64,000 bases of DNA from Polaribacter butkevichii (GTDB lineage Bacteria > Bacteroidota > Bacteroidia > Flavobacteriales > Flavobacteriaceae). This document shows positions 19,056-29,056 of this stretch, piece after piece. The stretch lies in NCBI RefSeq assembly GCF_038024105.1, contig NZ_CP150661.1:2499001-2563000 (forward strand). Direction: 5' to 3'. The notes beneath the pieces are model-generated. The model saw nothing but the letters and a program-made list of their open reading frames with translations. It did not search any database and was not told the DNA's origin. Position 1 is the first letter of the stretch, and each line of letters begins with the position of its first letter. Position numbers and translations under genes: made by a program.

Positions 19056-19332
19056 AATTTAAAGCATCTATTAATTTTCTACACACAGAATAATAAAAAG
19101 CATTCGCTTTATAAAAAACACAAAACCTAAATTATAAAGCATTAAATACTCATTATTCCTCGGACTATTCTTATTACAAATCGTTGATGATTCTCAATCT
19201 GTTGACGCAAATATTGGCATTAAAAATGTGAAATCTACCCAACGTACAAGCTAATACACTATTATAAAAAATAAATCAAAAGTAACTTAAGCCGTGTATA
19301 ATTAATGGTTTAAACACGCCAATAACCAAACA

Positions 19333-19428
19333 CCTTTAAAAAAACCTTTAAAAAAACCTTTAAAAAAACCTTTAAAAAAACCTTTAAAAAAACCTTTAAA
19401 AAAACCTTTAAAAAAACCTTTAAAAAAA
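19333..19428. repeat. Perfect 8 x 12 bp tandem repeat
   Basis: Eight identical copies of CCTTTAAAAAAA stand head to tail with no interruption (96 bp). Each unit carries an A7 tract with a 12-bp period. The last A tract runs directly into the 46-bp palindrome. Perfect identity suggests recent expansion or slippage; the spacing of A tracts could bend the DNA. Confidence 0.97.
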
Positions 19429-19470
19429 CAAAAAGAGTGAAAATTTTAAAATTTTCACTCTTTTTGTTTT
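19425..19470. terminator. 46-bp perfect palindrome, bidirectional terminator
   Basis: A 23-bp arm with core AAAAAGAGTGAAAATTTT is followed immediately by its exact reverse complement. Both ends have T-runs in the respective reading direction, so it can stop transcription from either side. It separates the potassium/sensor block from the lyase operon. Its GAAAATTT/AAATTTTC core recurs in the terminators at 27301 and 29205. Confidence 0.85.
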
Positions 19471-19730: not shown

Positions 19731-19738
19731 TATATTTG
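19731..19738 (+). promoter_or_regulatory. -7 box of the lyase/gluconate operon
   Basis: TATATTTG matches TAnnTTTG and lies 26 bases before the ATG of the first operon gene. It overlaps the left arm of the first palindromic operator, so a bound repressor would block it. No clear TTTG -33 box was found in the A/T-rich upstream sequence. Confidence 0.6.
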
Positions 19739-19759
19739 GGTACCCAAACTGGTTAACCA
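19735..19759. promoter_or_regulatory. Two tandem palindromic operators
   Basis: TTTGGGTACCCAAA (19735-19748) is a perfect 14-bp palindrome and TGGTTAACCA (19750-19759) a perfect 10-bp palindrome. Both share the form TGGkTAmCCA and their centres are 13 bp apart. FadR-subfamily GntR regulators of hexuronate genes such as UxuR/ExuR bind related TGGT-centre-ACCA palindromes. The regulator encoded at 23027 in the same operon is therefore the likely binder (inference). Confidence 0.65.
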
Positions 19760-19764
19760 AAATT

Positions 19765-21663
19765 ATGCTTCAAAAAAAATCAACAATTATCTTTATTATG
19801 GGAGTTTCTGGGGTTGGTAAAAGCACCATAGGAAACTTGCTATCAGAAAAATTAAACATTCCGTTTTTTGATGGAGATGATTTTCATCCCGAAGAAAATA
19901 TTTTAAAAATGTCTAAAGGAGAGGCATTAAATGATAATGACAGATTGGGTTGGTTACAAACCTTAAATAAACTTGCCAAAGAGCAATTAAAAAAAGGCGG
20001 TTGTATTATTGTTTGTTCTGCTTTAAAAGAAAAATATCGCGATATTTTAAATGCAAAAATAAAAGAAAATGCAAAATGGGTTTTTCTAAATGGTTCTTTC
20101 GAGCAAATAAAAGAAAGAGTAAACAATCGTAAAGGGCATTTTATGAGTTCTGATTTGTTAAAATCTCAATTCGATATTTTAGAAACTCCCAAAAACGCCA
20201 TTGATATAAATATAAATTTAACACCAAATAATATAGTAGAAATGATTAGTAAGGAAATCTTAAAAAAGTCAGAATTTGGTTTATTCGGATTAGGGGTTAT
20301 GGGTAAAAGCCTTAGTAGAAACCTAGCAAATAAAGGGTTTAACATATCTCTATTTAACAGACACATTAAAGACACAGAAGAAGATGTTGCAAAAAACTTT
20401 AAAAATGAATTTAAAGAATTGTCAACAAGTCTTCCTTTTGATAATATAGAAGCATTTGTAAATTCTCTAGAAAAACCCAGAAAAATCATGTTAATGGTAA
20501 ATGCTGGTAAAATTGTAGATGATGTTATAGAAGATCTTTTGCCGTTTTTAGATGCTGGAGATATTTTAATAGATGGTGGTAATTCTAACTACAACAAAAC
20601 AAAAGAACGTTTTGATTATTTAAAATCTAAAAACATCCATTTTGTTGGTGCCGGAGTTTCTGGTGGAGAAGAAGGTGCATTAAAAGGTCCTTCTATTATG
20701 CCTGGGTGTCCTAAAGAAGTTTACAAAAATGTACAACCTTTTTTAGAAGCCATTGCCGCTAAAGATGCTAATAATTTGCCTTGTTGTACTCATATAGGAA
20801 CCGAAGGAAGTGGCCATTTTGTAAAAATGGTACACAACGGAATTGAGTATGTAGAAATGCAATTATTAGCAGAAGTGTTTGTAATGTTAAAAGCATTAGG
20901 TAAAAACCCAGATGAAATAGCTAATATTTTAGAATCATGGAAAGCAACTACCAACAGTTATTTATTAGAAATAACTGTTGACATCCTAAGAAAAAAAGAA
21001 GGAGATGACTGGTTAGTTCATAAAATAATGGACAAAGCAGGCAATAAAGGAACAGGAAACTGGACCACCATTGCCACTGCAGAATTAGGAGTGCCTAGTA
21101 CCATGATTGCTTCTGCATTGTTTGCGAGATACACTTCTTTTTATAAAGAGGAACGTGTGAATGCTAGTGAAAGCTTTAAAGAAAATACGACACAAAATTT
21201 AAACTTAACTACGGGTGATATTTTAGAAGGATATCAATTTGCAAGAATTATAAATCATTACCAAGGATTAAAATTAATTCAAGAGGCTTCTAAAAGTTAT
21301 CATTGGGATTTAAACTTAAGCGAATTGGCTAGAATTTGGACAAATGGTTGCATCATTAAATCTGACTTAATGGTAGAATTGGTTACGGTATTTAAATCGA
21401 CCGATAATTTATTGACGGATAAAAGCATAATTCAAAAGATAAAAGCATTAAAACCAAGCATCAAAAAAGTGGTTTCTGAGGGTGTTTTAAACGAATTAGC
21501 AGTTCCTAATTTTAGCGAATCTATTAATTTCTTAAACAGTTTTGCAGTTGCAAATTCATCAGCAAATTTAATACAAGCACAACGCGATTATTTTGGAGCG
21601 CACACCTATCAAAGAATTAATGACGATTCTAATAAATTCTATCATACAGAGTGGAATAATTAA
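19765..21663 (+). CDS. Gluconokinase / 6-phosphogluconate dehydrogenase fusion
   Basis: 632 residues combining two complete enzymes. Residues 1-165 are a GntK-type gluconokinase with Walker A GVSGVGKST (13-21) and FFDGDDFHPEENILKM. Residues about 170-632 are a decarboxylating 6-phosphogluconate dehydrogenase: GLGVMG dinucleotide motif (175-180), LIDGGNSNYNKT (268-279), GGEEGA (300-305) and catalytic Lys354 in GHFVKMVHNGIEY. Lengths match stand-alone GntK and Gnd. One polypeptide would convert gluconate to 6-phosphogluconate and then ribulose 5-phosphate, CO2 and NAD(P)H. First gene of the operon, right behind the operators. Confidence 0.93.
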   Translation: MLQKKSTIIFIMGVSGVGKSTIGNLLSEKLNIPFFDGDDFHPEENILKMSKGEALNDNDRLGWLQTLNKLAKEQLKKGGCIIVCSALKEKYRDILNAKIKENAKWVFLNGSFEQIKERVNNRKGHFMSSDLLKSQFDILETPKNAIDININLTPNNIVEMISKEILKKSEFGLFGLGVMGKSLSRNLANKGFNISLFNRHIKDTEEDVAKNFKNEFKELSTSLPFDNIEAFVNSLEKPRKIMLMVNAGKIVDDVIEDLLPFLDAGDILIDGGNSNYNKTKERFDYLKSKNIHFVGAGVSGGEEGALKGPSIMPGCPKEVYKNVQPFLEAIAAKDANNLPCCTHIGTEGSGHFVKMVHNGIEYVEMQLLAEVFVMLKALGKNPDEIANILESWKATTNSYLLEITVDILRKKEGDDWLVHKIMDKAGNKGTGNWTTIATAELGVPSTMIASALFARYTSFYKEERVNASESFKENTTQNLNLTTGDILEGYQFARIINHYQGLKLIQEASKSYHWDLNLSELARIWTNGCIIKSDLMVELVTVFKSTDNLLTDKSIIQKIKALKPSIKKVVSEGVLNELAVPNFSESINFLNSFAVANSSANLIQAQRDYFGAHTYQRINDDSNKFYHTEWNN

Positions 21664-21684
21664 CTAAATAAAAAACAATTAACT

Positions 21685-22959
21685 ATGACAACAACCCAAA
21701 ATAAAAAGTCATTTCTAAAAAAAATAATAGCAGTTATTTTAGGATTTGGCCCTGGGATTTTCGCCATTGGATATACCATTGGCACTGGTAGTGTAACTTC
21801 TATGATTGTTGCAGGTAGTAAATTTAACATGCAATTATTATGGGTGTTATTGTTAAGTTGTATTTTCTCTGGAATTTTAATGTTTGCCTACGGAAATTAC
21901 GCTTTACTAACAGGAGAAACTGCCCTTTACGGATTTAAAAAACATTTAAAATATGGTAAAGTTTTAGCCATTTTAGTTATTGTGGGTATTACGTTTGGTC
22001 AATGGAATTCTCTAATGGGAATTTTAGGTATTTCTGCCAATATTATTTTTGAAATACTTGCCGTAAATTTTGAAGGTTTAGCTGCATATAAATATGAAAC
22101 CGTTTTAATTACAGCCATTATAATTATAATTACTTTTTACTTATTAATGTTGGTCGGTAAATATACTTTCTTCGAGAAAATACTTGTCATATTTGTAACC
22201 TTAATGGGATTCTCGTTTATACTATCACTATGTTTTGTACAACCTTTACCATTAGATGTTGTAAAAGGATTAATACCAACCATACCAAACGTTGTTGGTG
22301 GTAAAATGTTGGTGGCCGCCTTTGTAGGTACCACTATGGCATCGGCAACATTCTTATCGAGACCATTATTTGTAAAAGGAAAAGGCTGGACTATTAAAAA
22401 CTTAGATCAACAAAAAAAAGACTCTATAACCGCCGCTATTTTAATCTTTATTATTAGTGGTGTTATCATGGCAGTGGCTGCAGGAGCTTTGTTTTACCAA
22501 GGTAAAGAAGTTACACAAGTATTAGATATGGCAAATACTTTAGAACCTGTGGCAGGTAAATGGGCGGTTTCTATTTTCTTTTTTGGTGCTTTAAGCGCAG
22601 GTTTGTCATCAATTTTTCCTTGTTTGTTAATTGCACCTTTATTAATTGCAGATTATCAATCTGGCAAGTTAGATACCAATTCGCGTCAGTTTAGAATCAT
22701 CACTGCTATTGCTTGTTTAGTTGCATTAATTGGGCCAGCATTTGGTGCAAATCCTATAGAAATTCAAATTTTATCGCAAGTATTTAATGTATTTGTATTA
22801 CCCATTGTAATCCTCGGAATTATATTAATGTTAAGTAGCAAAAAAGTAATGAAAGACTATAAGACAACTTTAGGTGTATACATTGGTTTGTTTGCTGCCT
22901 TGTTCTTTTCTCTAGTAATTTCTTACAACGGCATATTGGCACTTTTAAATTACTTTTAA
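21685..22959 (+). CDS. Nramp-fold transporter lacking metal-site motifs
   Basis: 424 residues, about eleven hydrophobic segments. The start (ILGFGPGIFAIGYTIGTGSV) aligns with helix 1 of Nramp transporters, but their metal-binding DPGN is replaced by IGTG. The helix 6 region reads FVGTTMASATFLSRPLFVKG, where Nramp proteins have MPH. So the fold is Nramp (LeuT-like), yet the ligands for divalent metals are absent. Being 21 bp after the gluconokinase fusion and before the regulator and lyases, it is more plausibly an importer of the acid sugar used by this operon. The substrate is inferred, not shown. Confidence 0.82.
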   Translation: MTTTQNKKSFLKKIIAVILGFGPGIFAIGYTIGTGSVTSMIVAGSKFNMQLLWVLLLSCIFSGILMFAYGNYALLTGETALYGFKKHLKYGKVLAILVIVGITFGQWNSLMGILGISANIIFEILAVNFEGLAAYKYETVLITAIIIIITFYLLMLVGKYTFFEKILVIFVTLMGFSFILSLCFVQPLPLDVVKGLIPTIPNVVGGKMLVAAFVGTTMASATFLSRPLFVKGKGWTIKNLDQQKKDSITAAILIFIISGVIMAVAAGALFYQGKEVTQVLDMANTLEPVAGKWAVSIFFFGALSAGLSSIFPCLLIAPLLIADYQSGKLDTNSRQFRIITAIACLVALIGPAFGANPIEIQILSQVFNVFVLPIVILGIILMLSSKKVMKDYKTTLGVYIGLFAALFFSLVISYNGILALLNYF

Positions 22960-23026
22960 ACAACTAAGAGCGGTTTCTAAATGTATTTAAAAAAGAGAGT
23001 ATCATCAATTAAAACAATCAATTAAA

Positions 23027-23746
23027 GTGAAAATAAGTTTAATAAATGAAAATTCTAACAGAATTGTACAGAATGATGTGATCTGTAAAATTCGTGATTT
23101 AATTAACGCTAAAAATTTAGAGCGTGGAGATAAATTGCCTTCTGAGAGAATGATGTCAGAAAAATTTAATGTAAAAAGAAACCATATTAGAGAAGCCATA
23201 AGAAAGCTAGAGTTTTACGGAATCTTAAAATCCATGTCTCAGAGTGGTACTATTCTAGCCATAGGGTTAACTGGGTTTAATGGCATGGTAGAAGAAATAA
23301 TAGCGCTAGATGCACCTACTTTTAATGAATTAGTAGAAACCAGAATCTCATTAGAATTAAAGACCGTAAGATTAGCGGCAGAAAGAAGAACAGAGGTAGA
23401 TTTAAAACGAATAAAAGACACTTTAAATGCTTTTAAAGAAAAAATTACTATTGGAGACGATTATTTAGAAGAAGACTTATTGTTTCACTTAGCAATTGCA
23501 AAGGCTAGCCAAAACAGTACAATGGTTTCTCTAATGCTTTTAATAACGCCACCTATTTTAATTACTTACGATAGAGCAACTGTATGTGAAGGTGATAAAG
23601 TAATTTCTGAAATTAAAAAACACGAAGATATTTATTTAGCAATAGCAGCTAAAGACGTAGAACTTGCTTCAAAGATGATGAATGATCACTTTTTTAAATT
23701 ATCAAAACACATAGAAAACGAAGAAACAATTAAACCTAAATTATAA
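23027..23746 (+). CDS. FadR-type GntR transcriptional regulator
   Basis: 239 residues from a GTG start. N-terminal winged helix (KIRDLINAKNLERGDKLPSE, then MMSEKFNVKRNHIREAIRKL) and a C-terminal all-helical FCD ligand domain (about 90-225) with LEEDLLFHLAIAKASQNSTM, whose Asp/His positions bind metal and acid ligands in this family. FCD regulators commonly sense uronate or gluconate derivatives and usually repress. It is encoded inside the operon, four bases before the first lyase gene, and probably controls it through the palindromes at 19735-19759. Confidence 0.9.
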   Translation: MKISLINENSNRIVQNDVICKIRDLINAKNLERGDKLPSERMMSEKFNVKRNHIREAIRKLEFYGILKSMSQSGTILAIGLTGFNGMVEEIIALDAPTFNELVETRISLELKTVRLAAERRTEVDLKRIKDTLNAFKEKITIGDDYLEEDLLFHLAIAKASQNSTMVSLMLLITPPILITYDRATVCEGDKVISEIKKHEDIYLAIAAKDVELASKMMNDHFFKLSKHIENEETIKPKL

Positions 23747-23750
23747 AAAA

Positions 23751-24863
23751 ATGAAAAATAATAAAATAACATCGGTAGCTGCATGCCTAATTCTTGGCGT
23801 TTTTCTAACCCTTAACAGTTGTTCTAAAACCGCTAAAAAGGAAGAAAAAAAAGAAACAGAAAAAACCGTTTACGCAAGTGACGTAATTCCGTTTTTTGAT
23901 CATTGGAAATTAATTTTAGGTGATGGATCTAACGCTGGAGTTGCAAATAATTTTGAGCATAAAGACTTCTTTTTTACTGCAAATGAAGGTAATGAAAATT
24001 GGGTTGTTTTTAAAACGCCAAATGCCGGACATACACACGGAACCTCTAACAATACAAGAACAGAATTAGCACAATCTAAAAAATGGACGCCTAAAACCGA
24101 TGCCAATTTAAAAGCAACTTTAAAAGTAAAGAATGTATCTGTTACTGGCGATGCTCGTGTAGCAGCATCTTACTCGGTTGTTGTAGGTCAAATTCATAGT
24201 GCCGATGGTTTAGAGAATGAGCCATTAAAAATATTTTACAAAAAATTTCCTGGTCATACCAAAGGTTCTGTTTTTTGGGATTACGAAATTAACACCGCTG
24301 GTGATGACAATGCTGGAAGATGGGATTTTTCTACAGCTGTTTGGGGATATGATTTATCTGTTGTAGGTAGCGATGTAAGCACATATCCAGAAGAGCCGAA
24401 AGACGGAATTGCTTTAGACGAAGAATTTAGTTATGAAATAGATATTAAAGATGGTATTATGACCTTAACTTTTACAAGTGAAGGACATGAAACGAAAACA
24501 TTTACAAAAAACATAATCGTTTCAGAATACACAACAAAGGCAGATATTCCAGAGCAAACTCAAAAATTATTTGTATCCATTGGTCAAGACGGAGTAGAAC
24601 GTCCAGAGGCATATACTGGTGAAGGCTGTTTCTTTAAACTAGGAAACTACAACCAAACAAACGGAAAATCTCCTGAAATAAATAAAAACTGGTGTTCTGG
24701 TGCAGAAACTCATGGAGGAGACATTCAAAAACAATACGCAGACGGAAATTATACAGAAGTTTGGTTTAAAACAGCCAACATTACCATAAGTGATGATGCT
24801 TATTCTAACGATGGTTATTTTGCTAAAAATGATTTCTTGTACAAAAAACAAGCAAAACAGTAA
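23751..24863 (+). CDS. PL7 alginate-lyase-family lipoprotein (copy 1)
   Basis: 370 residues. Lipoprotein signal ending LNSC with Cys24. The catalytic domain (about 43-345) shows the three PL7 regions: RTEL (103-106), QIH (147-149) and FFKLGNYNQ (294-302, catalytic Tyr300). PL7 enzymes cleave mannuronate or guluronate linkages in alginate by beta-elimination. Here RTEL is followed by Ala where many PL7 enzymes have Arg, so the substrate range may differ. Lipidation places it at the outer membrane or cell surface. It is a paralogue of the lyase at 26200. Confidence 0.88.
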   Translation: MKNNKITSVAACLILGVFLTLNSCSKTAKKEEKKETEKTVYASDVIPFFDHWKLILGDGSNAGVANNFEHKDFFFTANEGNENWVVFKTPNAGHTHGTSNNTRTELAQSKKWTPKTDANLKATLKVKNVSVTGDARVAASYSVVVGQIHSADGLENEPLKIFYKKFPGHTKGSVFWDYEINTAGDDNAGRWDFSTAVWGYDLSVVGSDVSTYPEEPKDGIALDEEFSYEIDIKDGIMTLTFTSEGHETKTFTKNIIVSEYTTKADIPEQTQKLFVSIGQDGVERPEAYTGEGCFFKLGNYNQTNGKSPEINKNWCSGAETHGGDIQKQYADGNYTEVWFKTANITISDDAYSNDGYFAKNDFLYKKQAKQ

Positions 24864-24927
24864 AACTTAGCTACAATATAGCATTACACTTTTTAAAAAC
24901 AAAACACCTTATAGACACAGAAACATC

Positions 24928-25698
24928 ATGAAAATCAATCATAAATTAGCAGGTAAAAACGTACTTATAACTGCTGGAGCACAAGGAATTGGAGAATCTA
25001 TTACCAAACATTTTATAGATAGTGGAGCCAATGTAGCTATCCATTATTTTTCGAGTTCAGATACAGCCAATCAATTAGTAGCAGATGCAACTAGTAAAGG
25101 AGTAAAAGCAATTGCTATTGCTGGTGATTTAACAAAAGAAACCGATGCAATTACAATAGTAGAAAAAACGATAGCCGCGTTTGGAAGTTTAGACATCCTT
25201 ATTAACAACGCAGGCTCACTTGTTGCTCGTAAAATGCTAAACGAAATGGAAGCTGAATTTTGGCACAAGGTTATGGACATTAACATGACCTCTATGATGT
25301 TTGTTACAAAAGCAGCAGCGCCACATTTAGCAAAGAACAACACTAGTAGTATTGTTAATTTGGCATCACTTGCGGGGCGTAAAGGTGGTCATCCAGGATC
25401 ATTGGTCTACGCTACAAGTAAAGGAGCTATTTTAACATTTACAAGAGCATTATCTACAGAATTAGGTCCTCAGGGAACTAGAGTAAACGCTGTTGCCCCA
25501 GGTTTAATTTTAGGTACTTCGTTTCATAACACACACACAACAAAAGAATCTGCAGCTGCAACAACAGCAGGTATACCAATTCAAAGAGCAGGTAATGCAG
25601 CAGACGTAGCAAGAGCAGTTTTGTATTTAGCATCAGAATACGATGGTTTTATTACCGGAGCTACCCTAGATATTAATGGAGGTGTTTATAATATGTAA
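24928..25698 (+). CDS. SDR oxidoreductase of the lyase operon
   Basis: 256 residues, classical SDR: coenzyme motif ITAGAQGIG (about 13-21), NNAG near residue 91, catalytic Ser in NLASLAG and YATSK (YxxxK), C-terminus LYLASEYDGFITGATLDING. It begins LAGKNVLITAGAQGIG, similar to gluconate 5-dehydrogenase (IdnO) and related keto-acid reductases. In alginate pathways an SDR reduces DEH to KDG; in idonate pathways IdnO reduces 5-ketogluconate to gluconate. The gluconokinase fusion in the same operon favours a reaction leading to gluconate, but this is inference. Confidence 0.87.
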   Translation: MKINHKLAGKNVLITAGAQGIGESITKHFIDSGANVAIHYFSSSDTANQLVADATSKGVKAIAIAGDLTKETDAITIVEKTIAAFGSLDILINNAGSLVARKMLNEMEAEFWHKVMDINMTSMMFVTKAAAPHLAKNNTSSIVNLASLAGRKGGHPGSLVYATSKGAILTFTRALSTELGPQGTRVNAVAPGLILGTSFHNTHTTKESAAATTAGIPIQRAGNAADVARAVLYLASEYDGFITGATLDINGGVYNM

Positions 25699-25724
25699 TT
25701 CATAATTTTTTAAAATATAATTTT

Positions 25725-26159
25725 ATGCTAAAAACTCCGATTATACACCCAACAATTATGGAAACACTTGCGCGTTCTGGTCATTTTGCGCAAGTGGTTA
25801 TTGCAGACGGTAATTTACCTGTTGGCGCCATGACAGGTCCTAACTCTACAACGGTACATCTTAATTTTAAACCAGGATTGTTAGATGCACTTACCGTACT
25901 AGAAGGCATCTTAGAAGTTTGCCCTGTACAAGGAGCAATCGTTATGGAAAAACCTGCCGAAGCAAATGCAGAAATACATGATGCTTATAAAAAATTACTA
26001 GGAGATGTAACTTGGGATGAAATGGAACGTTGGGCTTTCTACGATAAAATTAGAGACCCAAACACCACTTTAATTATTCAAACAGGAGAACAGCGTAGAT
26101 TTGCTAATTTAATACTAACTGTTGGCGTTGTAAAAATGGCAGAAGAAAGTGGATTTTAG
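25725..26159 (+). CDS. RbsD/FucU-type sugar mutarotase
   Basis: 144 residues of the RbsD/FucU family, which interconverts anomeric or ring forms of monosaccharides. Family marks: HPTIMETLARSGHFAQVVIADGN split around the conserved His and Asp, and the C-terminal YDKIRDPNTTLIIQTGEQRR followed by FANLILTVGVV, which resembles FucU (fucose mutarotase) more than RbsD. It lies 26 bp after the SDR gene. In this operon it would prepare an aldose or uronate released by the lyases; the exact sugar is unknown. Confidence 0.88.
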   Translation: MLKTPIIHPTIMETLARSGHFAQVVIADGNLPVGAMTGPNSTTVHLNFKPGLLDALTVLEGILEVCPVQGAIVMEKPAEANAEIHDAYKKLLGDVTWDEMERWAFYDKIRDPNTTLIIQTGEQRRFANLILTVGVVKMAEESGF

Positions 26160-26199
26160 GAAATTGAACACCTTATTTTATTTATAAAAAACAAACAAA

Positions 26200-27264
26200 A
26201 TGAATATAAAACTCACAAAAGCATTCGTACAACCATTTTTTTTGATAGGCGTTGCTTTATTAGTTAGCAGTTGTTCTAACACACCCAAAAAACCGACTGT
26301 TAGAAAAGAAGCAACATCAATAACATATCCAAGTGATGTTATTCCGTTTATGGATCAATGGAATATTCTTTGTGGAGATGGAAAGAAAATTAAAAACTTA
26401 ACAAACAAAGAACATAAAGACTTTTTTTATGTTGCTAATGATGGAAAAACAGATTGGGTAGTTTATAAAACACCTAATTCTGGAATTACTTCTAGAACCT
26501 CTAGTAATACAAGAACAGAACTAGGACAAAATAAAAAATGGTTAACTGAAGTTGGAGGTAAGTTAACAGGTACCGGAAAAGTAATGCATGTTTCCACCTC
26601 TGGTGATGCAAGAGTTGCCGCTTCTTATTCGGTGGTTATTGGACAAATACATGGAAATGGCGGACATGAAAATGAACCTTTAAAAATATTTTATAAAAAA
26701 TTTCCGGGACACAAAAAAGGGTCTATTTTTTGGAATTATGAAATTAACACCAAAGGTGATAACGCTAAAAGGTGGGATTATTCTACAGCAGTTTGGGGAT
26801 ATGATATGTCTGTAGTTGGAGACACTGCTACTTCTTACCCAGAAGAACCAGAAAATGGTATTGCGTTAGGCGAAGAATTCAGTTATACAATAAACGTATT
26901 TAACGGCGTAATGTATCTTACTTTTAAAAGCGAAGGTCACAAAACTAAAAAGTTTACAAAGAGCTTAATCAAATCAGAATTTTCTAAAAAGTCAGATATT
27001 CCTCAACAAATTTTAACACTGTACGCAGCAATTGGTCGTGATGGTGTAGAACAAGAAAATGGATATGCAGGAGAACTACAAAACTTTAAGCAAGGTGCCT
27101 ACAACCAAACAAACGGTAAAGACCCAAAAGACAATATCGTTTGGCATACCGGCTCAGAAACCTATAATGGTGATATTGCAAAACAATATGCAAATGGATG
27201 CTATGCAGAAGTATGGTTTAAACAAGCAACCGTTGGCGCGGGTACAAAGCCAAGTGAAGAGTAG
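26200..27264 (+). CDS. PL7 alginate-lyase-family lipoprotein (copy 2)
   Basis: 354 residues. Lipoprotein signal ending VSSC with Cys25. PL7 marks: RTEL (105-108), QIH (149-151) and FKQGAYNQ near residue 300. Long identical blocks with copy 1 (for example GDARVAASYSVV and EPLKIFYKKFPGH) show that the two arose by duplication. Here RTEL is followed by Gly, again not the usual Arg. Last gene of the operon, followed within 40 bp by a terminator. Both lyases seem surface lipoproteins, so they may act successively on polymer and oligomers. Confidence 0.88.
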   Translation: MNIKLTKAFVQPFFLIGVALLVSSCSNTPKKPTVRKEATSITYPSDVIPFMDQWNILCGDGKKIKNLTNKEHKDFFYVANDGKTDWVVYKTPNSGITSRTSSNTRTELGQNKKWLTEVGGKLTGTGKVMHVSTSGDARVAASYSVVIGQIHGNGGHENEPLKIFYKKFPGHKKGSIFWNYEINTKGDNAKRWDYSTAVWGYDMSVVGDTATSYPEEPENGIALGEEFSYTINVFNGVMYLTFKSEGHKTKKFTKSLIKSEFSKKSDIPQQILTLYAAIGRDGVEQENGYAGELQNFKQGAYNQTNGKDPKDNIVWHTGSETYNGDIAKQYANGCYAEVWFKQATVGAGTKPSEE

Positions 27265-27300
27265 TTTTTAACGAGTATCAACTCGTATTTGATAAGAAGC

Positions 27301-27337
27301 AAAAAAGGTGAAAATTTAAAAATTTTCGCTTTTTTTT
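27301..27337 (+). terminator. Terminator of the lyase operon
   Basis: AAAAAAG and GAAAATTT on the left pair with AAATTTTC and CTTTTTT on the right, with a small bulge (gt opposite g). A long T-run follows. The stem core is the same as in the 46-bp palindrome at the other end of the operon. Confidence 0.8.
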
Positions 27338-27931: not shown

Positions 27932-29056
27932 ATGAAAACATTCAAATCAGGAAATCGTATAAATCAAGGAACTTATAAAAGCTTCCAACCTAATAAGATA
28001 AATCAACAATGGGGAATTGAGGATATGGAAGTATTGAACCTTTTAAGTCAAGCCGATAGGCAACTAGGAAGACTTGATATGTATTCGGAATATATTCCAA
28101 ATATTGAATTATTTATTAGTATGCACGTCTTAAAAGAAGCAACTCAATCAAGTAAAATAGAAGGAACTAAAACGAATATTGAAGATGCTCTATTAGATAA
28201 AGAAGATGTAAATGATGAAAAAAGAGACGATTGGGAAGAAGTTCAGAATTATATAGAAGCTTTAAACTCTGCAATAAAAAACCTCGAAAAATTACCGTTT
28301 TCTTCACGATTAATTAGAGAAACTCACAAGATATTATTACAAGGTGTAAGAGGGAAACACAAACTTCCTGGAGAATTTAGGAGTAGTCAAAATTGGATAG
28401 GTGGCGCAAGCATTAATGATGCTACTTTTATCCCTCCTATTCACTCTAGCATCAATGAATATATGGGAGATTTAGAAAATTTTGCACATAATTCTGAATC
28501 ATTTTTTCCTGACTTACTTAAAATAGCATTAATCCATTATCAATTTGAAACAATCCATCCATTTTTAGATGGAAACGGAAGAGTTGGACGATTAATGATT
28601 ACTTTATATTTAGTAGAAAAAGGAATACTAAAAAAACCAATCCTATACCTTTCAGACTTTTTTGAAAGAAATAGAATTCTATATTATGATAACCTTACAA
28701 AGGTTAGAGAAAAAGATGACTTAAGTCAATGGTTTAAATTTTTCTTAGTTGGAGTTATAGAAACGACTAAAAGTGGTATAAATACATTTGATAGTATTTT
28801 AAAACTACAAAAAGAAGTTGAAATTAAACTTCAAACATTAGGAAGTAGGTCTCATAATGCTCAACTTATTTTGAATCATTTATTTCAAAAACCAATTATA
28901 GATGCTCAAAAAGTGAAGGAATTAACAAGCCTTTCTTCTCCATCTGTTTATAAACTAATAGATGAGCTAGAAAAGCTTGAAATATTAACAGAAATAACAG
29001 GAGCAAAAAGAGGGAAAATATATTCGTTTAGAGAATACACTAGACTTTTTAAATAA
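27932..29056 (+). CDS. Fic family protein, class II (self-inhibited)
   Basis: 374 residues. Core motif HPFLDGNGRVGR (209-220) matches HxFx(D/E)GNGRxxR with catalytic His209, so AMP transfer to a target hydroxyl is expected. The N-terminal inhibitory helix motif SSKIEG (73-78, Glu77) fits [S/T]xxxE[G/N] and precedes the core, which defines class II Fic proteins. The flap region GASINDATFIPP is intact. A C-terminal winged-helix segment (about 305-370, VKELTSLSSPSVYKLIDELE) suggests DNA binding or autoregulation. Single gene with its own promoter and terminator; target protein unknown. Confidence 0.93.
   Translation: MKTFKSGNRINQGTYKSFQPNKINQQWGIEDMEVLNLLSQADRQLGRLDMYSEYIPNIELFISMHVLKEATQSSKIEGTKTNIEDALLDKEDVNDEKRDDWEEVQNYIEALNSAIKNLEKLPFSSRLIRETHKILLQGVRGKHKLPGEFRSSQNWIGGASINDATFIPPIHSSINEYMGDLENFAHNSESFFPDLLKIALIHYQFETIHPFLDGNGRVGRLMITLYLVEKGILKKPILYLSDFFERNRILYYDNLTKVREKDDLSQWFKFFLVGVIETTKSGINTFDSILKLQKEVEIKLQTLGSRSHNAQLILNHLFQKPIIDAQKVKELTSLSSPSVYKLIDELEKLEILTEITGAKRGKIYSFREYTRLFK

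Follow-up and report, generated by a model that had tools for sequence, protein, structure and literature searches.

What could gluconate enzymes be doing beside alginate lyases? The question is raised by an operon of Polaribacter butkevichii, whose genome forms a single contig of 4.08 Mb. The operon lies within the 64,000-nucleotide stretch analysed here (C1:2499001-2563000, hereafter the window), in which seven rightward open reading frames, separated by short gaps, occupy positions 19765-27264. In order, they encode a GntK-Gnd fusion, an Nramp-fold carrier, a FadR-type regulator, a PL7 lyase, a short-chain dehydrogenase/reductase (SDR), an RbsD/FucU mutarotase and another PL7 lyase. An earlier reading of the window, made without database searches (the original prediction), had proposed the same operon with these gene names, and it was borne out, each name being backed by both Pfam and NCBIfam profiles. 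The parts are ordinary ones; their arrangement points to one apparently undescribed step. We infer that, in alginate utilisation, the operon provides a side branch for saturated L-guluronate, running beside the usual pathway, a reading that we rate at somewhat better than an even chance.

The fusion gene (19765..21663, + strand) indicates where such a branch would end. Its GntK half scores 168.5 bits against TIGR01313 (cut-off 113.75), carries the P-loop GVSGVGKS at residues 13-20 and falls below both E. coli-type equivalog cut-offs (NF008583 and NF007336); its Gnd half scores 524.4 bits against TIGR00873 (cut-off 426.7), with KMVHNGIE at 354 fitting KMxHNGxE. The fusion is the only 6-phosphogluconate dehydrogenase (6PGDH) of the genome (single PF00393 match), and a search confined to the PF02781 family returned no match for a glucose-6-phosphate dehydrogenase (G6PDH). 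The same search was positive in 9 of 14 control genomes. Among 33 relatives searched (35 loci were chosen; L046 and L087 were left out), G6PDH was found in none of the 31 with gnd at the locus (30 fused, one unfused) versus both of the two without it (Fisher P = 0.0019). With one 6PGDH and no PF02781-type G6PDH, 6-phosphogluconate has no evident origin other than gluconate; together with the profile scores of the fusion, this supports the original prediction that the route ends in gluconate, 6-phosphogluconate and ribulose 5-phosphate. The ordinary oxidative pentose phosphate pathway is rejected for want of a G6PDH match in PF02781, and action of the fusion on 2-keto-3-deoxygluconate (KDG) or its 6-phosphate (KDPG) is rejected on chemical grounds, as these compounds would not offer the C3 hydroxyl.

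Which polymer feeds the operon is suggested by its promoter region. A predicted -7 box, TATATTTG, at 19731..19738 (+ strand) reads TAnnTTTG, which we take to be the Bacteroidota-type consensus. Its end is overlapped by a tandem palindromic operator, TTGGGTACCCAA-A-CTGGTTAACCAA, at 19736..19760 (+), directly after which comes the ATG of the first gene. In a scan of the whole genome, the tandem form TGGNNNNCCAANYTGGNNNNCCA occurred at seven exact sites in six promoters, namely those of the SusC, PL17, PL7 and PL6 genes of an alginate locus, of the window operon and of a PL6 gene near 3630 kb, so that every exact site precedes alginate genes or the window operon and the operator is shared between them. 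With up to two mismatches allowed, the tandem pattern was still specific, giving 24 forward sites versus 7 for the control, and a scan with the single palindrome stayed at the control level (86 sites each). The PL6 gene near 3630 kb (L124:6825-9488) lies away from the alginate locus and, judging by its tandem operator, likely joins the alginate regulon. Using the carrier as query, we obtained 260 related loci and kept the best 80 (1.6 Mb), several of which are on short contigs, so that counts from them are lower bounds. They contained 254 tandem sites with at most one mismatch, versus 0 for the reversed pattern, and 76 of the 80 loci had at least one.

The FadR-type regulator of the operon (GntR/FCD by Pfam; 23027..23746, +) is a paralogue of the alginate-locus regulator, with 55% identity, and probably controls the operon through this alginate-type tandem palindrome. 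One half of the window operator is a TGGG/CCCA variant, and the other palindrome is of the main alginate type. With regulators typed by the closer of the genome's two paralogues, a split by construction (13 and 12 regulators, both references counted), the TGGG/CCCA half was found in 21 of 28 palindromes in operons with the window-type FadR versus 6 of 402 elsewhere (Fisher P about 1e-24), and within the DNA-binding stretch examined residue 43 (Met or Leu) alone differed throughout between the types. The operon thus looks to have its own regulator and a related operator, which is a weaker tie than identical control.

An alginate-type operator before the operon argues against a system separate from the KDG route. 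Such a separate module, bypassing that route, had been proposed in the original prediction, which found the canonical alginate genes absent. This holds within 19731-27337, where no KDG-route gene except a possible reductase is present, and fails for the rest of the genome. The alginate locus at C1:1838-1863 kb comprises an SDR, an MFS permease, a GntR/FCD regulator, two pairs of SusC and SusD, a PKD protein, a protein that matches no Pfam family and a third PL7, as well as what we read from their domains as a KdgF-type cupin, a PL17 (Alginate_lyase + Hepar_II_III_C) and two PL6 (PF14592). The SDR of this locus (254 residues) is of the type of FlRed, a reductase of 4-deoxy-L-erythro-5-hexoseulose uronate (DEH): it has Glu39-Asp40, reported as the NADH residues of FlRed, whose cluster is described as having the order regulator, permease, SDR (PMC4306948), the order also present here. 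Near C1:125 kb, Eda (NF005499, 383.8 bits; cut-off 275) adjoins a PfkB kinase that resembles KDG kinases, scores below every NCBIfam cut-off listed and, from its sequence, is presumably the KDG kinase. With Eda, this kinase, the FlRed-type reductase and the alginate SusC/SusD, KdgF-type, PL17 and PL6 genes all encoded in the genome, and with many relatives holding the module and KDG-route genes in one locus, replacement of the KDG route is rejected, and a distinct polymer module bypassing it is hardly credible.

What the operon would add to the KDG route is suggested by its two lyases (23751..24863 and 26200..27264, both +). These paralogues, 59% identical to each other, are two of four PL7 copies in the genome, the others being at 1859613 and 860266. 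They match PF08787 with 164.3 and 161.1 bits and, over the whole domain, AlyA5 (PDB 4be3) with 439 and 554 bits, respectively. The first has QIH at 147-149, Tyr300 and the exo-determining Trp314, and the second QIH at 149-151, Tyr301 and Trp315; QIH and Tyr are described as catalytic in PL7 (PMC8065536), and the Trp as blocking the groove in AlyA5-type enzymes (PMC7268478). Both thus carry the sequence features of PL7 subfamily 5, including the Trp of loop 3, and are predicted to be AlyA5-type exolyases that release monomers; their N-termini read as those of lipoproteins. The AlyA5 identity of both enzymes disfavours another polymer, such as glucuronan, which some fungal PL7 reportedly cut. 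AlyA5 itself is established as exolytic in vitro. Exolyases have been reported to yield saturated mannuronate and guluronate besides the unsaturated unit (PMC5809466), and for VxAly7D, 39.7% identical to AlyA5, a saturated product of polymerisation degree 1 was seen by mass spectrometry (PMC7268478).

How could a saturated uronate then become gluconate? The original prediction had left this step unexplained; we agree that it is the open one, and stereochemistry offers an answer. When reduction at C1 was computed for five uronates, L-guluronate alone yielded D-gluconate; D-mannuronate gives D-mannonate, D-glucuronate gives L-gulonate and D-galacturonate gives L-galactonate. The candidate enzyme is the SDR of the operon (24928..25698, +; S147, Y161, K165). 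A1-R' (SpsADH, PDB 4TKM), an SDR-family DEH reductase, is reported to oxidise D-gluconate to L-guluronate in vitro with 79% of its efficiency on KDG; with C5 and C6 aldoses its authors could measure no reduction, and they point to the need for an open chain (PMC6011931). Such a limitation fits the presence of the RbsD/FucU-family mutarotase gene (25725..26159, +) directly 3' of the SDR gene, an adjacency found in all seven relatives carrying rbsD. The mutarotase scores 107.6 bits against PF05025 (cut-off 25) but does not reach the cut-offs that NCBIfam sets for ribose pyranase and fucose mutarotase. On the strength of gene linkage and the analogy with A1-R', we propose that the SDR is an NADPH-type L-guluronate reductase making D-gluconate and that the mutarotase opens the uronate ring.

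The module SDR is 37% identical to the FlRed-type enzyme of the genome and has His39-Tyr40 where the latter has Glu39-Asp40, which sets it apart from FlRed-type DEH reductases; lacking the acidic residues, it could plausibly use NADPH, which would balance Gnd. R101 and F199-H200 are common to this SDR, the DEH reductase A1-R (3afm) and the FlRed-type enzyme, and are not shown by the generic SDRs 3i3o and 3sj7 when aligned. The Arg alone is not specific, since an alignment of the FlRed-type enzyme with gluconate 5-dehydrogenase 1vl8 shows Arg at that place in the latter too, without F-H.

The same residues could be claimed for a rival explanation, namely that the SDR serves as an additional DEH reductase that uses NADPH, and that GntK-Gnd burns gluconate from elsewhere, mainly for NADPH in a cell without G6PDH. 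The SDR shares not only R101 and F199-H200 but also the GG-PG loop with NADPH-dependent A1-R, has His39-Tyr40 instead of the NADH residues and often lies beside PL17 and KdgF; the occurrence of A1-R beside A1-R' in Sphingomonas A1 provides a precedent. However, a FlRed-type reductase was found in 37 of 37 genomes (our own included; 37 further loci had been chosen, with L033 left out), at 82-100% identity and in single copy in 36, and the module SDR accompanies it, in the fetched stretch or the window, in 32 of these 37, so that the module SDR is not needed as a DEH reductase. Furthermore, this rival offers no gluconate source, would leave the aldose mutarotase beside the SDR without a clear role for DEH and sits poorly with three minimal loci (L055, L067 and L068) that consist of gntK-gnd, the carrier and the SDR alone, with PL7 elsewhere in their genomes. 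We regard it as unlikely.

A glucose shunt, in which the SDR is a glucose 1-dehydrogenase, the mutarotase acts on glucose, and GntK and Gnd replace the missing G6PDH, would agree with the PF02781 result. The best NCBIfam model of the SDR is indeed a glucose 1-dehydrogenase subfamily (213.6 bits, cut-off 215), and several homologue source entries are so named. Yet the genes sit with alginate genes and alginate-type operators, where presumably no glucose is made, and the F-H motif that the SDR shares with A1-R is not shown by 3i3o and 3sj7, which makes the shunt improbable.

As a further alternative, the substrate could be another saturated uronate, or both alginate monomers, with D-mannuronate reduced to D-mannonate and passed to KDG via UxuA. 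A1-R' is reported to oxidise D-mannonate as well, at a relative efficiency of 37% (PMC6011931). The genome encodes UxuA at C1:163980-165137 (L142), between an SDR gene and a KduI gene, in another uronate locus with the potential to convert D-mannonate into KDG; this locus, however, is far from the seven exact operator sites. Mannonate is also of no use to GntK-Gnd, and we consider this alternative a shade less probable still than the shunt.

L-Guluronate, the substrate that we favour, would have to enter the cell, a task for which the gene position of the Nramp-fold carrier (21685..22959, +) makes this protein the proposed candidate. It scores 211.9 bits against PF01566 and 74 against NF037982 (cut-off 50), and its closest named match, at 95%, comes from a Polaribacter metagenome-assembled genome (MAG). 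Nramp transporters have the metal-site motifs DPGN and MPH. Neither was present in any of the 80 relatives, and in the alignments 74 of them have IGTGSVTSM in the corresponding region, so that the carrier does not qualify as an Nramp divalent-metal transporter and metal import is disfavoured. In two MAGs (L081:10001-12116 and L092:4877-6992), the neighbour of the carrier is another SDR (43% identical) and gntK is missing from the locus, an arrangement that may serve a sister pathway for some other sugar acid.

The proposed guluronate branch would thus proceed as follows. The AlyA5-type lyases would trim oligoalginates from the non-reducing end, and the saturated end residue would be freed as the uronate rather than as an unsaturated unit; the carrier, devoid of metal motifs, would move this uronate across the inner membrane. 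The mutarotase would speed ring opening, and the SDR, presumably working in the reductive direction, would reduce the C1 aldehyde of L-guluronate to yield D-gluconate. The GntK half would convert gluconate into 6-phosphogluconate, and the Gnd half would turn the latter into ribulose 5-phosphate, with formation of CO2 and NADPH; an NADPH-dependent SDR would in this way have its reductant restored. Unsaturated units would follow the ordinary route through KdgF, the FlRed-type reductase, KDG kinase and Eda, encoded at the other loci.

The gene-order search in the 80 related loci showed that the module recurs, mostly with alginate genes. Fused gntK-gnd is present in 61 loci and a separate gntK in 8 more (5 with a separate gnd), bringing gntK to 69 of 80; the SDR was found in 65, PL6, PL17 or KdgF in 59, any PL in 73 and rbsD in 7. 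A common order is PL6, PL7, gntK-gnd, carrier, PL7, SDR, PL17, KdgF, SusC, SusD. These 59 loci and the alginate-type operator uphold the link to a uronate polymer made in the original prediction. Eleven genomes without gntK at the locus were searched (14 loci chosen), and ten had a GntK match elsewhere (43-59% identity); PL7 was present in all 12 genomes tested, a chosen subset of 12 loci. Eight of the 80 loci have, near their alginate genes, a member of one gene family, of which the copy in L056 (L056:13239-13958) is RraA-like; FlDet of the oxidative DEH route is described as a member of the RraA-like family (PMC8563752).

Several considerations weigh against the proposed guluronate branch. 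By the lyase mechanism, each original chain should contribute about one saturated residue, from its end, so that long alginate should sustain a small flux, which does not account for the conservation of the branch; the natural substrate would be short saturated oligomers. The R101 and F-H features of the SDR would fit a uronate but equally DEH, as in A1-R, and they are shared by 4yqy and 3edm, both of unknown function. Guluronate reduction by A1-R' was left unmeasured because uronates were not obtainable in quantity (PMC6011931), and FlRed is reported to be practically inactive on other aldehydes or aldoses (PMC4306948). In the fetched stretch, the SDR is missing from 15 of the 80 loci, and gntK is missing from 10 of the 65 loci that have the SDR; four of these SDRs have only 43-45% identity, and five of the 36 relatives in the FlRed-type survey show no module SDR there. 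One of the eleven genomes without gntK at the locus (G008/L090) gave no GntK match genome-wide, and rbsD, found in 7 of 80 loci, cannot be essential. As to regulation, 32 of the 254 tandem sites precede genes that carry no label, fall within genes or are not close to any; the DNA fetched for loci L055, L067 and L068 contains no operator of this kind; and, the window operator being a variant, the operon's own regulator may act alone.

The borders of the operon agree in part with the original prediction, which had placed it between a palindromic terminator and a related one. An intrinsic-terminator-like perfect hairpin (19428..19467, +; 18 pairs, loop of 4, -20.1 kcal/mol) closes the upstream unit, and a hairpin with a T run, likewise intrinsic-terminator-like and related in sequence to the first stem, stands at the operon end (27301..27336, +; 16 pairs, -12.9 kcal/mol). 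For the palindrome at the left edge, the promoter and operator described above are the better reading. Just 5' of the upstream terminator, positions 19328-19429 consist of a 12-bp tandem repeat, AAAAACCTTTAA, in 8.5 copies with 98% matches. A Fic/DOC-family protein (Fic_N + Fic) is encoded at 27932-29056, 667 bases past the operon and outside it, and an Rfam scan of the window gave no match.

In the accounts cited here, alginate breakdown is funnelled through DEH and continues, for the most part, to KDG. The L-guluronate passage of a review on hexuronates gives the DEH route only (PMC6353982), a transcriptome paper on Zobellia mentions gluconate in one passage, which deals with laminarin and not with alginate (PMC5613140), and Flavobacterium sp. 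UMI-01 is known to have an oxidative branch that starts from DEH (PMC8563752). Literature searches that covered few subscription papers found no phrase naming guluronate reductase, dehydrogenase, catabolism or metabolism, and no paper on alginate and 6PGDH in flavobacterial polysaccharide utilization. More broadly, marine Bacteroidota of many genera may possess, in or beside their alginate loci, an undescribed reductive route for free L-guluronate, which would be the only evident oxidative entry into the pentose phosphate pathway in the absence of G6PDH and would employ a relative of Nramp that has switched from metals to sugar acids; we regard this generalization as evenly poised. If true, a conserved second funnel for saturated guluronate would explain the SDR, the GntK-Gnd fusion and the 'Nramp metal transporter' of many marine alginate loci, the database names of the module SDR, carrier and fusion would have to be corrected, and carbon from brown algae would be linked directly to the supply of NADPH and pentoses in bacteria without G6PDH.

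Compared with known systems, the genome has a set similar to those of Zobellia galactanivorans and Flavobacterium sp. UMI-01, described as including PL6/PL7/PL17, SusC/SusD, KdgF, SDR, KdgK, Eda and a GntR repressor (PMC8073546, PMC5334617, PMC4306948). The relevant passages of those accounts present the DEH-KDG route only and leave gntK-gnd, an Nramp-fold carrier, a second SDR and a mutarotase unnamed. For the alginolytic systems of Alteromonas sp. 76-1, a figure legend (Figure S3) lists FabG and 'Nramp, metal-ion transporter' (PMC6431674); FabG and Nramp are likewise present there, but that paper reads them as an extra DEH reductase and metal transport, with no link to gluconate in the relevant passages. 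Both PL7 enzymes share with AlyA5 the whole-domain match, QIH, Tyr and the exo-determining Trp; unlike AlyA5 alone, they are two paralogues in one operon with gluconate enzymes. The module SDR resembles A1-R, A1-R' and FlRed in family and catalytic residues, and A1-R also in R101 and F-H; it differs in the absence of Glu39-Asp40 and in its linkage to gntK-gnd instead of kdgK-eda. The proposed end of the branch has parallels too, as the GntII (L-idonate) route also leads to D-gluconate and then 6-phosphogluconate. In a fungal D-glucuronate route, the uronate-derived acid is likewise described as ending as D-gluconate and 6-phosphogluconate (PMC6353982). The GntII and fungal routes pass through several keto-acid steps, whereas here a single reduction would do.

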